Part shown: piece by piece, positions 2,821-5,855 of the stretch
Position numbering within the stretch: position 1 is the first letter of the stretch
Layout: each line of letters starts with the position of its first letter
Virus record (IMG/VR): IMGVR_UViG_3300008339_000131
Span: 1 to 41,808 of that record
DNA: 41,808 nt
Strand: one strand, 5' to 3'
Source: a virus
Made by a program: the position numbers and the translations under genes
Notes under the pieces: model-generated
What the model was told of the DNA's origin: nothing
The model's input: the letters and a program-made list of their open reading frames with translations, nothing else
The model's database searches: none

Positions 2821-3020
2821 AAGCTACTCTTAAAAGAACGATTGTTAAGTCGTTAATTTACAGGTTGTTTGTAATTATGACAACTTATATCATGCTTCTT
2901 GTTACTGGTCAGAATATGGCTGATGCAATTATACCTACTATTATTATTAACTGTTTATGGACTTTGTCTTATTTTATTAATGAGAGAATATGGAATAAGA
3001 TCGATTGGGGTAAGATTTAA
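2817..3020 (+). CDS. DUF2061 small membrane protein
   Basis: The 67-residue product has a basic N terminus, two hydrophobic segments (about 15-30 and 37-53) and the ending ERIWNKIDWGK. That C-terminal pattern, together with TIVKSLIYRLF near the start, matches DUF2061 membrane proteins. Their biochemical role is not known. The ATG overlaps the nuclease stop, so it is the last gene of the first co-translated group. A late-promoter box begins 25 bases after its stop. Confidence 0.75.
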   Translation: MKATLKRTIVKSLIYRLFVIMTTYIMLLVTGQNMADAIIPTIIINCLWTLSYFINERIWNKIDWGKI

Positions 3021-3045
3021 CAGTTGATTTTAATTTTTAACTATA

Positions 3046-3054
3046 CTATAAATA
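3046..3054 (+). promoter_or_regulatory. T4-type late promoter for the tmRNA gene
   Basis: CTATAAATA matches the T4-family late -10 element. In T4 the first transcribed base lies six bases past the final A, which puts the predicted start at about 3060, right at the expected 5' end of the tmRNA acceptor piece. No open reading frame follows for over 350 bases, so an RNA product fits. The gp33-like co-activator for such promoters is encoded at 5622. Confidence 0.7.
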
Positions 3055-3059
3055 AAGAG

Positions 3060-3125
3060 CTGATGTCGTTGACGGAAGTAGAATAGACATTCTGGACGCG
3101 GGGGCAGTACCCGCCGCCTCCACCA
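3060..3125 (+). ncRNA. tmRNA acceptor piece
   Basis: This is the 3' tRNA-like half of the tmRNA. GGACGCGGG leads into a 5-bp T stem, GCGGG (3098-3102) with CCCGC (3110-3114), closing a 7-base loop GGCAGTA (3103-3109). The acceptor strand (3115-3121), discriminator A3122 and CCA (3123-3125) follow. GGACGCGGG is the same block seen before the T loop in E. coli tmRNA. The T loop differs from the tRNA-like TTCRANT form. I believe this loop type occurs in alphaproteobacterial tmRNAs, but that is from memory. The 5' end is inferred from the promoter. Confidence 0.85.
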
Positions 3126-3242
3126 CGGATACACTGGTCGTTGGGTGCAACAGTCCTCCTATTATAAAGAGGGTAAGGCGGAAGAGACTAGTATATAACT
3201 GTTCGCACTGAGCAAAGCGGTGTCTCACAGTGTATCTTTGAT
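3126..3242 (+). other. tmRNA intervening spacer, removed during maturation
   Basis: The 117 bases between the CCA and the coding-piece 5' end join the two halves in the precursor. A 9-bp helix, GATACACTG (3128-3136) with CAGTGTATC (3228-3236), stacks close to the acceptor stem and should present the pre-tmRNA to processing nucleases. Loss of this spacer gives separate acceptor and coding RNAs. No open reading frame is evident in it. Confidence 0.75.
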
Positions 3243-3397
3243 GGGGGCGAAACAGGATCGACAGGTGTAGTAAAGGCTAACCTGAGACTGATGCAAACTC
3301 GTAAATGCAAACGATAACAATGCATATGGTGCTTACGCTCTAGCAGCCTGAGTCACATGAGCTTCGTGAGGTGTGCTTGGAAACAGAAACACCTCAC
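3243..3397 (+). ncRNA. tmRNA coding piece
   Basis: The piece begins with the acceptor 5' strand GGGGGCG (3243-3249) and a D-loop-like GGATCGAC. A short helix follows, CAGGT (3262-3266) with ACCTG (3280-3284), then a possible pseudoknot stem GAG/CTC. The tag frame is 3307-3351. A 9-bp hairpin (3366-3374 with 3389-3397) closes the piece. No T-run follows this hairpin, so it looks like an RNA end or processing structure rather than a terminator, and transcription may continue into the acyl carrier protein gene. The exact 3' end is not determined. Confidence 0.85.
3307..3351 (+). other. tmRNA proteolysis-tag reading frame
   Basis: From the resume codon GCA the frame reads ANDNNAYGAYALAA and then TGA. 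Bacterial tags typically begin AN or AAND and end in a hydrophobic AxAA degron read by ClpX; both ends are kept here. No start codon or ribosome-binding site precedes it, as expected for a frame entered by trans-translation. The degron looks functional. Confidence 0.88.
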
Positions 3398-3417
3398 ACT
3401 ATATTATGGAGATTATA

Positions 3418-3675
3418 ATGACCAAAGAAGAGATCGCAAAAGTAGTTTTTGATCACTTTAATAAAAGTTACGGTATTGATCTTAGCACATTTGATAGAAG
3501 CTATCCGTTATCCCGTCTTAAAGAATTAAATGAAAAGCTAGACTCACTAGAAGTAATAACTTTTATGTCTGAATTAGAAGATATCTTTAAAATTAATACT
3601 ATTACTATTGAAAGTGGTGCTACAACTATTGAAGAATTGATCGATTACCTCTACGAAAATATCGATAAAGAATGA
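3418..3675 (+). CDS. Acyl carrier protein
   Basis: The 85-residue acidic protein has the acyl-carrier signature LDSLEVITFM at 41-50. Ser43 of the DSL motif is the predicted phosphopantetheine site, so it should become a holo-ACP once a host transferase acts. GGAG at 3408-3411 sits correctly before the ATG at 3418. An upstream in-frame TTG would add 15 residues reaching into the tmRNA hairpin and is unlikely. The gene starts about 20 bases after the tmRNA and its stop overlaps the next ATG, tying it to the ketoacyl synthase it probably serves. Confidence 0.88.
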   Translation: MTKEEIAKVVFDHFNKSYGIDLSTFDRSYPLSRLKELNEKLDSLEVITFMSELEDIFKINTITIESGATTIEELIDYLYENIDKE

Positions 3676-4829
3676 GACGTGTTGTAGTTACGGGTGTAGG
3701 TAGTAGAACACCTATTGGTAATAATTTATCAGAAATTAAAGAATCACTCTTTACTGGTAAGCAGGGTACCAAAGAGTATATATTTGGATCGGCTGCTTAT
3801 ATAGTTAAAGATAATATAGATTCACATTTTGATAGATTTGATTTAAACGTCACTGATAGATTTACACGACTGGCATACCTTTCTTTCTTAGATGCAAAAA
3901 ATGATAGCTCCGTACAACCAGAAGGTATATTTTTAGGTGTTGGTTATGGTGGTGGTGCATTAACATACGAAGAATCTTATAGAAGTTTATTTGCTAAGAA
4001 TAAAGTAAAACCTACCGCATTAGTTTGCTCAGTGGTTAATATGGGTGCTAACTTTATTGCTTTAAAAGAGAATATAACAGGTCCAGCTTTTACATATTCT
4101 ACAGCATGTGCATCTGCATCAACTGCAATCGGTGAAGCATATAAAAAAATTGCATATGGGGAGTATGATTGTCTTGCAGCTGGTGGTGCGGAAGCTTGTA
4201 TTAATGAATTACAATTTGCATTCTGGAAAGCAATGAATGCATTAAGTGATGACTGCAAACCGTTCTCAAAAAACAGAAACGGTATTACTATGTCTGAGGG
4301 TTCAGTAATTTTTATATTAGAAGAGCTTGATCACGCATTGAAAAGAAATGCTAATATTTACGGTGAAATAGTAGGGTATGGTGCTACTAATGGTTCTGAA
4401 TCCGTTACTAAACCTAACACACCAGGACAAATAAAAGCAATGCAAATTGCAACTAAAAATATTTTGTTTGACGATATTACCTATATTAACGCACATGGTA
4501 CAGGCACACCAACAGGTGATATAGTTGAATTGCAGAGTATAATTAGTTTGTTTGGTGATAAAGCAAAATATATACCAGTCAGTTCTACAAAGAGTTTACA
4601 TGGACATCTTTTTGGTGCAGCAGGTGCAATAGAGACACTTGCATGTCTTTTAGCATTAAAACATGATGTGGTAATACCTAATTGGAATTTAGACGAATTA
4701 GATAATTCTATATCTAAAAAAGATATTAATCTGCCTACGGAAATCTACAATAGCAAACAAAAAGTAACCTTAAACAACTCGTTTGGTTTTGGTGGTACTA
4801 ATATTACATTAGCTTTTTCAAGTCTATAA
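3672..4829 (+). CDS. Beta-ketoacyl-ACP synthase, FabF/KAS II-like
   Basis: The 385-residue thiolase-fold enzyme keeps the Cys-His-His set: Cys146 in STACASA, His275 in NAHGTGTPTGD and His312 in the KSxHGHLxGAAG-type motif with Lys307. The C-terminal signature NNSFGFGGTN (368-377) is intact. It should condense an acyl-primed enzyme with malonyl-ACP to lengthen a fatty acid by two carbons. At 385 residues it is slightly shorter than bacterial FabF (about 410). It overlaps the ACP gene by 4 bases and is followed by the desaturase. A polyketide-type role is also possible, since KAS folds are shared; intact catalytic residues argue that it is active. Confidence 0.9.
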   Translation: MRRVVVTGVGSRTPIGNNLSEIKESLFTGKQGTKEYIFGSAAYIVKDNIDSHFDRFDLNVTDRFTRLAYLSFLDAKNDSSVQPEGIFLGVGYGGGALTYEESYRSLFAKNKVKPTALVCSVVNMGANFIALKENITGPAFTYSTACASASTAIGEAYKKIAYGEYDCLAAGGAEACINELQFAFWKAMNALSDDCKPFSKNRNGITMSEGSVIFILEELDHALKRNANIYGEIVGYGATNGSESVTKPNTPGQIKAMQIATKNILFDDITYINAHGTGTPTGDIVELQSIISLFGDKAKYIPVSSTKSLHGHLFGAAGAIETLACLLALKHDVVIPNWNLDELDNSISKKDINLPTEIYNSKQKVTLNNSFGFGGTNITLAFSSL

Positions 4830-4832
4830 ATA
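4824..4832 (+). promoter_or_regulatory. Candidate late promoter overlapping the KAS stop codon
   Basis: CTATAAATA contains the TAA stop of the ketoacyl synthase. The T4 late geometry places the first transcribed base at 4838, exactly the A of the desaturase ATG. If used, it would make a leaderless desaturase mRNA. The match to the consensus is full, but the box also encodes the stop codon region and could be chance. Confidence 0.4.
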
Positions 4833-4837
4833 AACTA

Positions 4838-5611
4838 ATGAAATATACTTTAGATTCCTATATTGTATTAATAACTCAATTAATTGCTCATCTTTCCTTT
4901 ATACCTATGATAATGTATGCATCATGGTATCATTGGTTGATTGCTTATGGTATAGCAGTTATAATGGGTGGTATCGGAATAGGTATGATCAACCATCGCT
5001 ACTTAACACATAAAGCATTTAAGTTTAATAGTGATTGGGTGCGTAATATTTTTCTTTTTATTGCAGTTTTTACATTACAAGGACCATCTCTTTCTTGGGT
5101 TGCTATTCACAGAGAGCATCATGCATATACAGACAGAGAAAAAGATCCTCACGGTCCTCATCATGGATTTATAAATTCATATTTTGGATTTGTTATGCAT
5201 GAGCAAAAGGTTGCATTTGTTAAAGATTACGTAAAGCATAAAGAGCTAGTATTCTTATACAAATATCATTGGTTAATTAACATCTCTCTAATAGTAATTT
5301 TATATTTAATATTCGGGTTTATGGGACCAATAGTAGGATTTTTAGTACCAGGTGCTTATGTCTGGTTTGTAACTGGTATGGTAAACATATTTTCACACAT
5401 GAAAAATATTGGTTATAGAAACTACGAAACAAAAGATAATAGTGTAAACTTACCTTTTCTTGCTTATGTTTCTCTAGGAGAAGCATGGCATAATAATCAT
5501 CATGGTGATCCTAGAAACCCTTATTTCTCTACTAATAAAAAAGAGTTTGATCTTATAGGATCGTTTATTTCTTTTTTAAAATATAATAAAATAATAAATG
5601 TAAATCAGTGA
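4838..5611 (+). CDS. Membrane fatty-acid desaturase (acyl-lipid or acyl-CoA type)
   Basis: The 257-residue protein has the three histidine boxes of the membrane di-iron desaturases: HRYLTH at 53-58, HREHH at 91-95 and HNNHH at 218-222. An additional histidine at 187 is in the usual place for an iron ligand. Four or so hydrophobic stretches (about 8-30, 34-50, 68-88, 145-185) fit the family topology. It should introduce a double bond, probably at delta-9, into fatty acyl chains in the host inner membrane, using host electron donors. It lies directly after the ketoacyl synthase, so the three genes look like one lipid-remodelling cassette. Confidence 0.9.
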   Translation: MKYTLDSYIVLITQLIAHLSFIPMIMYASWYHWLIAYGIAVIMGGIGIGMINHRYLTHKAFKFNSDWVRNIFLFIAVFTLQGPSLSWVAIHREHHAYTDREKDPHGPHHGFINSYFGFVMHEQKVAFVKDYVKHKELVFLYKYHWLINISLIVILYLIFGFMGPIVGFLVPGAYVWFVTGMVNIFSHMKNIGYRNYETKDNSVNLPFLAYVSLGEAWHNNHHGDPRNPYFSTNKKEFDLIGSFISFLKYNKIINVNQ

Positions 5612-5621
5612 ATGGTACAAT

Positions 5622-5855
5622 ATGAAAATAGCCAACGTTAAATCTTCTGCCGACTTCGTTAAAGAAATAGATAAATTAGTTTTAAGTAAAAATTTAACTT
5701 TTTTTGACGCTGTAATGTATTATTGTGAAACAAATAATGTTGAGGTAGAGACAGCTGCTTCACTTATTAAACAAAGTGCTCTATTAAAAGCTAGGATACA
5801 AGTAGAAGCAGAAAATCTTAACATGGTAAGAAAGACGAGTCGACTTCCTATATGA
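5622..5855 (+). CDS. 33: Late transcription co-activator gp33
   Basis: This 77-residue acidic, helical protein matches my memory of cyanophage gp33: a DAVMYYCETNNVEVETAASLI core and an ending near RLPI. In T4, gp33 bridges host RNA polymerase and the sliding clamp gp45 to activate late promoters with the sigma-like gp55. T4 gp33 is 112 residues, so this is a reduced form. The gene overlaps the next ATG by 4 bases, and the order 33-59-32 is the usual one in T4-like phages. Late-promoter boxes in the window are its expected targets. Confidence 0.8.
   Translation: MKIANVKSSADFVKEIDKLVLSKNLTFFDAVMYYCETNNVEVETAASLIKQSALLKARIQVEAENLNMVRKTSRLPI

Follow-up and report, generated by a model that had tools for sequence, protein, structure and literature searches.

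Does a T4-like phage own the two-piece tmRNA gene that it carries, or is the gene a recent loan from a host? The question is raised by a 41.8-kb linear viral record, analysed over its whole length of 41,808 nt and referred to below as the window. A preliminary description of its sequence had recognized a circularly permuted two-piece tmRNA under a late promoter, and had asked whether the permuted form was already described in a T4-like phage. It was, in Melnitz and in other marine phages. Buchholz et al. (2022) described the two-piece tmRNA of the T4-like marine phage Melnitz, counted 53 such tmRNAs in phage genomes, almost all of them aquatic, and proposed a role in translation maintenance or in the recycling of host proteins (PMC9004378). 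Other ssrA-bearing phages were listed in 2014 (PMC4131195). In the literature searched, no test of the function of a phage two-piece tmRNA was found.

A permuted two-piece tmRNA in a T4-like phage fragment

A cmscan search of the window gave an end-to-end match to the alpha_tmRNA model RF01849 at 3020-3398 (121.4 bits against a gathering score of 50, E 9e-33) and another to the tmRNA_permuted model RF04321 at 3068-3351 (106.3 bits against 47). With both scores far above gathering, the permuted two-piece form is borne out, and RF01849 confirms that the order is the alphaproteobacterial one. The preliminary description had proposed the alpha_tmRNA search together with a run of a tmRNA finder; the first was thus positive, while ARAGORN reported no tmRNA in the window, which we judge to be a false negative. 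This silence was rejected as evidence against a tmRNA and is given no weight, because three other phage loci tested, L003, L004 (of the window's own phage type) and L044, were missed as well, close relatives among them. The minimum free energy of 3061-3398 lay 3.6 sd below that of shuffled sequences. Matches to MIR162 and TLS-PK4 in a permissive Rfam search of the window were far under the cut-offs and were attributed to chance.

The gene content of the window (PhoH, exonuclease, gp33-like late coactivator, gp59, gp32, head completion, tail and baseplate) supports the T4-like context that had been suggested. The source is a virus of bacteria, probably marine, and its nearest cultured relatives by baseplate wedge protein include DLP_6, Cr30, Mosig, HTVC008M and Melnitz (35-42% identity). 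The features of the locus, all on the + strand, are as follows.

2122-2820, +: PD-(D/E)XK exonuclease (phrog_298), the upstream syntenic marker
3024-3054, +: putative compound promoter, with -35-like TTGATT (3024-3029), a 17-bp spacer and TATAAATA (3047-3054), predicted start near 3060; near-identical with the same spacing in L003, and found in relatives
3060-3125, +: acceptor piece, with the 5' P2 strand (3065-3093) and the T arm and 3' acceptor strand (3094-3121); RF01849 and RF04321 matches, T-stem and P2 covariation
3123-3125, +: encoded CCA of the acceptor piece, preceded by the discriminator A; RF01849 and RF04321 matches
3126-3242, +: intervening spacer of 117 nt, presumably removed; an insertion relative to both Rfam models, supported by the fold and replaced in L003
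3127-3136 with 3229-3237, +: closing helix of the spacer, roughly 10 bp, GGATACACTG/CAGTGTATC; from the fold
3243-3397, +: coding piece, with the GGGGGCG acceptor strand, D-like region and TCGAC, P2 3' strand, tag frame and 3' pseudoknot hairpin; RF01849 match and covariation
3307-3351, +: tag ANDNNAYGAYALAA and stop TGA, resume codon GCA; from translation, the tag ends being common to relatives
3358-3397, +: 3' pseudoknot, TGAGC (3358-3362) with loop GCTTG, and a 9-bp hairpin GTGAGGTGT/ACACCTCAC around conserved GGAAACAGAA; formable in most relatives
5622-5855, +: gp33-type late transcription coactivator (phrog_254), the downstream syntenic marker, followed by gp59 and gp32

The acceptor piece, with its CCA encoded, lies 5' of the coding piece with the spacer between them. 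The promoter-like sequence, P2 5' strand, T arm, acceptor 3' strand with CCA and spacer are followed by the acceptor 5' strand GGGGGCG, the D-like region, the P2 3' strand, the tag with its stop, and the 3' pseudoknot hairpin that ends at 3397. The tag frame has a resume codon, a stop and a hydrophobic end; its ANDN start and LAA-like end are common to relatives, and the majority of phage tags end in LAA, AVAA or similar. Most of these parts had been read correctly beforehand: the 7-bp acceptor stem with G-U at its third pair (G3-U70, the alanine identity), the encoded CCA, the T stem (GCGGG/CCCGC, with loop GGCAGTA), the GGGGGCG start at 3243 and the tag with its stop. The 9-bp helix reported in the spacer came out at roughly 10 bp. 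We conclude that 3060-3397 is a circularly permuted two-piece tmRNA of the alphaproteobacterial type in a T4-like phage fragment.

One further candidate at the locus was rejected. Near 3071-3081 the window has GACGGAAGTAG, which looks like the core of Rfam's glutamine riboswitch, present beside Melnitz ssrA; the permissive Rfam search of the window gave no glutamine riboswitch match, and the resemblance is treated as chance or as an untraceable remnant.

Covariation and loss of PK1

Pairing was examined in an alignment of 21 distinct phage sequences of a compact class. P2, which pairs the two separately encoded pieces, had changed on both sides with pairing kept at several pairs (for example A-U/G-C at one position and U-A/A-U/C-G at another). 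One T-stem pair occurred as three Watson-Crick types, and the T-G pair at acceptor-stem position 3 was present in 21 of 21. The 3' pseudoknot was formable in 53 of 55 distinct sequences, as compared with a mean of 31.2 and a maximum of 38 in 200 shuffles of the loops; these counts are descriptive and are not probabilities, because the sequences are related. Among relatives, covariation is seen in P2, in the T stem and in the 3' pseudoknot, also between the two separately encoded pieces.

The window departs from the alphaproteobacterial tmRNA in one respect: in the RF01849 alignment, the model positions of PK1, upstream of the tag, are deleted. The coding piece before the tag measures 65-69 nt in the compact class and 85-89 nt in the bacterial copies parsed. 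This absence alters the variant and not the identity of the tmRNA, and is common in phage relatives. The deletion might lower the activity of the window's tmRNA. A still more reduced class, with a coding piece of ~50 nt before the tag, was seen in L071, L080, L086, L101 and L120. Predicted tags were unusually long, at 29-31 residues (e.g. ANDNALSNVTFVDFSAPVTAVNEDFALAA), in L080, L066, L073, L095 and L106.

A weakened tagging function, which loss of PK1 could bring about, would suit an RNA that inhibits host tmRNA by competing with it for SmpB, in the manner of the form reported in mycobacteriophage DS6A that consists of the tRNA-like domain only; such a domain alone can inhibit host tmRNA (PMC4131195). 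We regard such a decoy as very improbable, since the whole coding piece, the resume codon, the LAA-ended tag and the 3' pseudoknot have been kept, none of which a pure decoy needs.

A promoter probably read early as well as late

The preliminary description had proposed a late promoter on the strength of CTATAAATA, which is indeed present at 3046-3054 and contains TATAAATA, the T4 late -10 sequence. The proposal was half right: the late element is present and conserved, but so is a sigma-70 -35 element placed 17 bp before it. The number of TATAAATA copies was rejected as support, since the window has no excess of the sequence (7 copies against 9.7 expected); the support comes instead from its conservation at this place, where it occurs in 31 of 46 distinct upstream regions as against 1.4% of control stretches.

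Most syntenic phage tmRNAs are preceded by TTGACA-17-TATAAATA or by a variant close to it. At least four of six matches to TTGACA were found at 41 of the 68 TATAAATA sites before tmRNAs, 24 of which have all six, and at 13 of the 141 sites elsewhere (Fisher p 1e-14, a value that ignores relatedness). Only two of the 25 TATAAATA sites of Melnitz have such a -35, the tmRNA's site among them. The -35 of the window, TTGATT, agrees with the consensus at 4 of 6 positions. A simple sigma-70 scan of the window did not list this promoter, because its -10, TATAAA, lacks the final T.

For RB49 and S-PM2, the middle mode has been proposed to consist of early and late promoters that overlap (PMC2984593), and the authors of the Melnitz study called its tmRNA promoter early (PMC9004378). 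From the conserved -35 that precedes TATAAATA at 17 bp, we suggest that the promoter is probably compound and read early as well as late.

A fixed place beside gp33

At least 120 viral contigs matched a degenerate 32-base pattern of the acceptor and T arm. Among the matches listed, a gp33 homologue lay 0.27-2.7 kb downstream of the tmRNA on the same strand in ~50 loci, some of them near-duplicates, with no exception. Mosig (in which the tmRNA is annotated), HTVC008M (in which it is not) and Melnitz have the tmRNA at the same place between exonuclease and gp33. In HTVC008M (KC465899) the unannotated permuted tmRNA, at 145161-145370, overlaps the end of a hypothetical gene. No tmRNA was found in C48C1, Cr30 or P-HM2, and most exonuclease relatives picked without tmRNA selection had neither a nearby gp33 nor a tmRNA; the gene is not universal in this phage group.

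The exact 32-base acceptor/T-arm sequence also occurs in 18 bacterial genome contigs. At least two of these, L145 and L150, are probably phage contigs binned with bacteria, to judge by their phage-like tags and long spacers. SmpB was sought in 21 phage or viral records, several of which, including the window, are fragments; none was found, and control genomes were positive.

Between the tmRNA and gp33 of the window (3418-5611) lies a cassette of three genes: an acyl carrier protein (ACP; a weak NCBIfam match with a DSLEV motif), a FabF-like ketosynthase whose Cys-His-His motifs are intact, and a membrane fatty acid desaturase that has three histidine boxes. The near-identical phage L003 lacks the cassette; contigs of the window's phage type aside, no other tmRNA locus yielded an ACP or a ketosynthase.

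Evolution of the gene within phages

L003 is 94% and 91% identical to the window in the two flanking blocks, and differs almost throughout between them, with other genes upstream. The promoter and acceptor piece are nevertheless 95% identical over 111 nt, with no difference from TATAAATA to the CCA, and the coding piece up to the tag is largely retained. Spacer and tag differ, the L003 tag being ANDNFAPNLALAA. The median spacer length was 88 nt in phages as compared with 22 nt in the bacterial copies parsed.

A tree built from the alignable parts rests on ~150 positions, few of them informative, and is used for broad statements only; it placed the window inside a clade of 20 phage sequences (support 0.84) and gave the bacterial sequences a clade of their own (support 1.0). 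The bacterial side was thinly sampled, the pattern having parsed a minority of 30 further bacterial loci and left 21 unparsed. As far as these sequences go, an all-phage clade beside a separate bacterial one favours long residence in phages over recent capture from a host.

The same data bear on whether the gene might be a non-functional relic of host ssrA, such as an integration remnant or a piece of transduced host DNA. Host ssrA genes are common integration sites of other elements (PMC9004378, PMC4131195), and the window copy lacks the PK1 segment. A relic would, however, hardly have both ends, tag, stop and 3' pseudoknot intact. Covariation, the one syntenic place in ~50 loci among the matches listed, the all-phage clade and the conserved promoter of its own also speak against it, as does the T4-like context, in which no integrase was seen. 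We hold this explanation to be most improbable. On balance we lean towards the view that a T4-like lineage has kept its own tmRNA beside gp33 over a long time under a compound early/late promoter, and that the gene has evolved within phages into a compact, PK1-less form whose spacer and tag change fast. It would then count as a translation gene that belongs to the phages themselves, as opposed to a recent host loan.

A proposed role in infection

We consider it likely that the locus is an intact phage-owned ssrA gene supplying trans-translation in infection, independently of the host chromosome. The observations behind this are sequence, structure, covariation, synteny, promoter conservation and the absence of SmpB from the phage records searched; we infer processing, charging, tagging, timing and benefit, with every step after transcription drawn from tmRNA biology. 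A single precursor would be transcribed from the compound promoter, and host processing enzymes would excise the 117-nt spacer. The two products, an acceptor piece of ~66 nt with CCA at its end and a coding piece of ~155 nt, would stay joined through the acceptor stem and P2. Charging, by way of G3-U70, would fall to the host's alanyl-tRNA synthetase. With no SmpB found in the phage records searched, host SmpB would have to serve, and together with host EF-Tu it would deliver the tmRNA to ribosomes stalled on broken mRNAs. There ANDNNAYGAYALAA would be added, its LAA end directing the product to a Clp-type protease. The phage would gain a supply of tmRNA not tied to the host chromosome while mRNA is being degraded. 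The preliminary description had likewise proposed that the gene may keep ribosomes moving, or else may replace host tmRNA.

By the same mechanism, a working tmRNA could have been kept for another reason, as a replacement for host tmRNA that is destroyed or cut in infection, for example by a defence RNase or through degradation of the host genome. The compound promoter suggests expression throughout infection, and differences in spacer and tag between near-identical phages would be expected if parts of the RNA were under changing attack. Nothing indicates cutting of host tmRNA, however, and L003 does not differ from the window in the acceptor piece, a likely target; we think replacement unlikely as the reason.

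The fixed place, conserved compound promoter and compact structure make the timing of phage tmRNA in infection a question that can be asked. The compact class allows one to ask whether PK1 is dispensable in nature, and the tag differences between near-identical phages amount to a natural experiment on tag function. Phage two-piece tmRNAs are known, yet some copies have gone unannotated.

Comparison with known systems

Melnitz ssrA (MZ577095; PMC9004378) is, like that of the window, a permuted alphaproteobacterial-type tmRNA of a T4-like marine phage, located between PhoH/exonuclease and gp33, with a TTGACA-17-TATAAATA-type promoter and an encoded CCA; its tag, ANDNYVPVDYALAA, ends in ALAA. Unlike the window, Melnitz keeps most of the PK1 segment, has a spacer of 142 nt and carries a glutamine riboswitch 3' of the tmRNA, whereas in the window the coding piece is compact, a riboswitch match is absent and the ACP-ketosynthase-desaturase cassette precedes gp33. 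The Melnitz riboswitch (L002, 6357-6405) lies 3' of the terminal hairpin of the tmRNA; its position thus suits control of the next gene rather than of the tmRNA, in disagreement with how the published abstract words it. The SAR11 phages Mosig and HTVC008M, compared by score and place, share the permuted tmRNA at the exonuclease-gp33 place of T4-like phages, with RF04321 scores of 91-94 bits. An unannotated permuted tmRNA with tag ANDDSFAPMAIAA was also seen in phage DLP_6 (L168, 102838-103059), which has a gammaproteobacterial host; at 136.8 bits it has the top permuted-model score among the records searched.

Alphaproteobacterial ssrA (RF01849) shares with the window the permutation, acceptor arm, T-loop type, ANDN tag start and 3' hairpin with conserved loop, but the bacterial copies parsed have short spacers, keep PK1 and form a separate clade. 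The tmRNAs of mycobacteriophages and of Bacillus phage G are known as one-piece RNAs. They are phage-encoded ssrA genes, as in the window, but belong to unrelated phages (PMC4131195). As far as the literature searched shows, the location beside gp33, constant across many contigs, is an addition, as are the compound promoter and the class without PK1, to what these systems had revealed.
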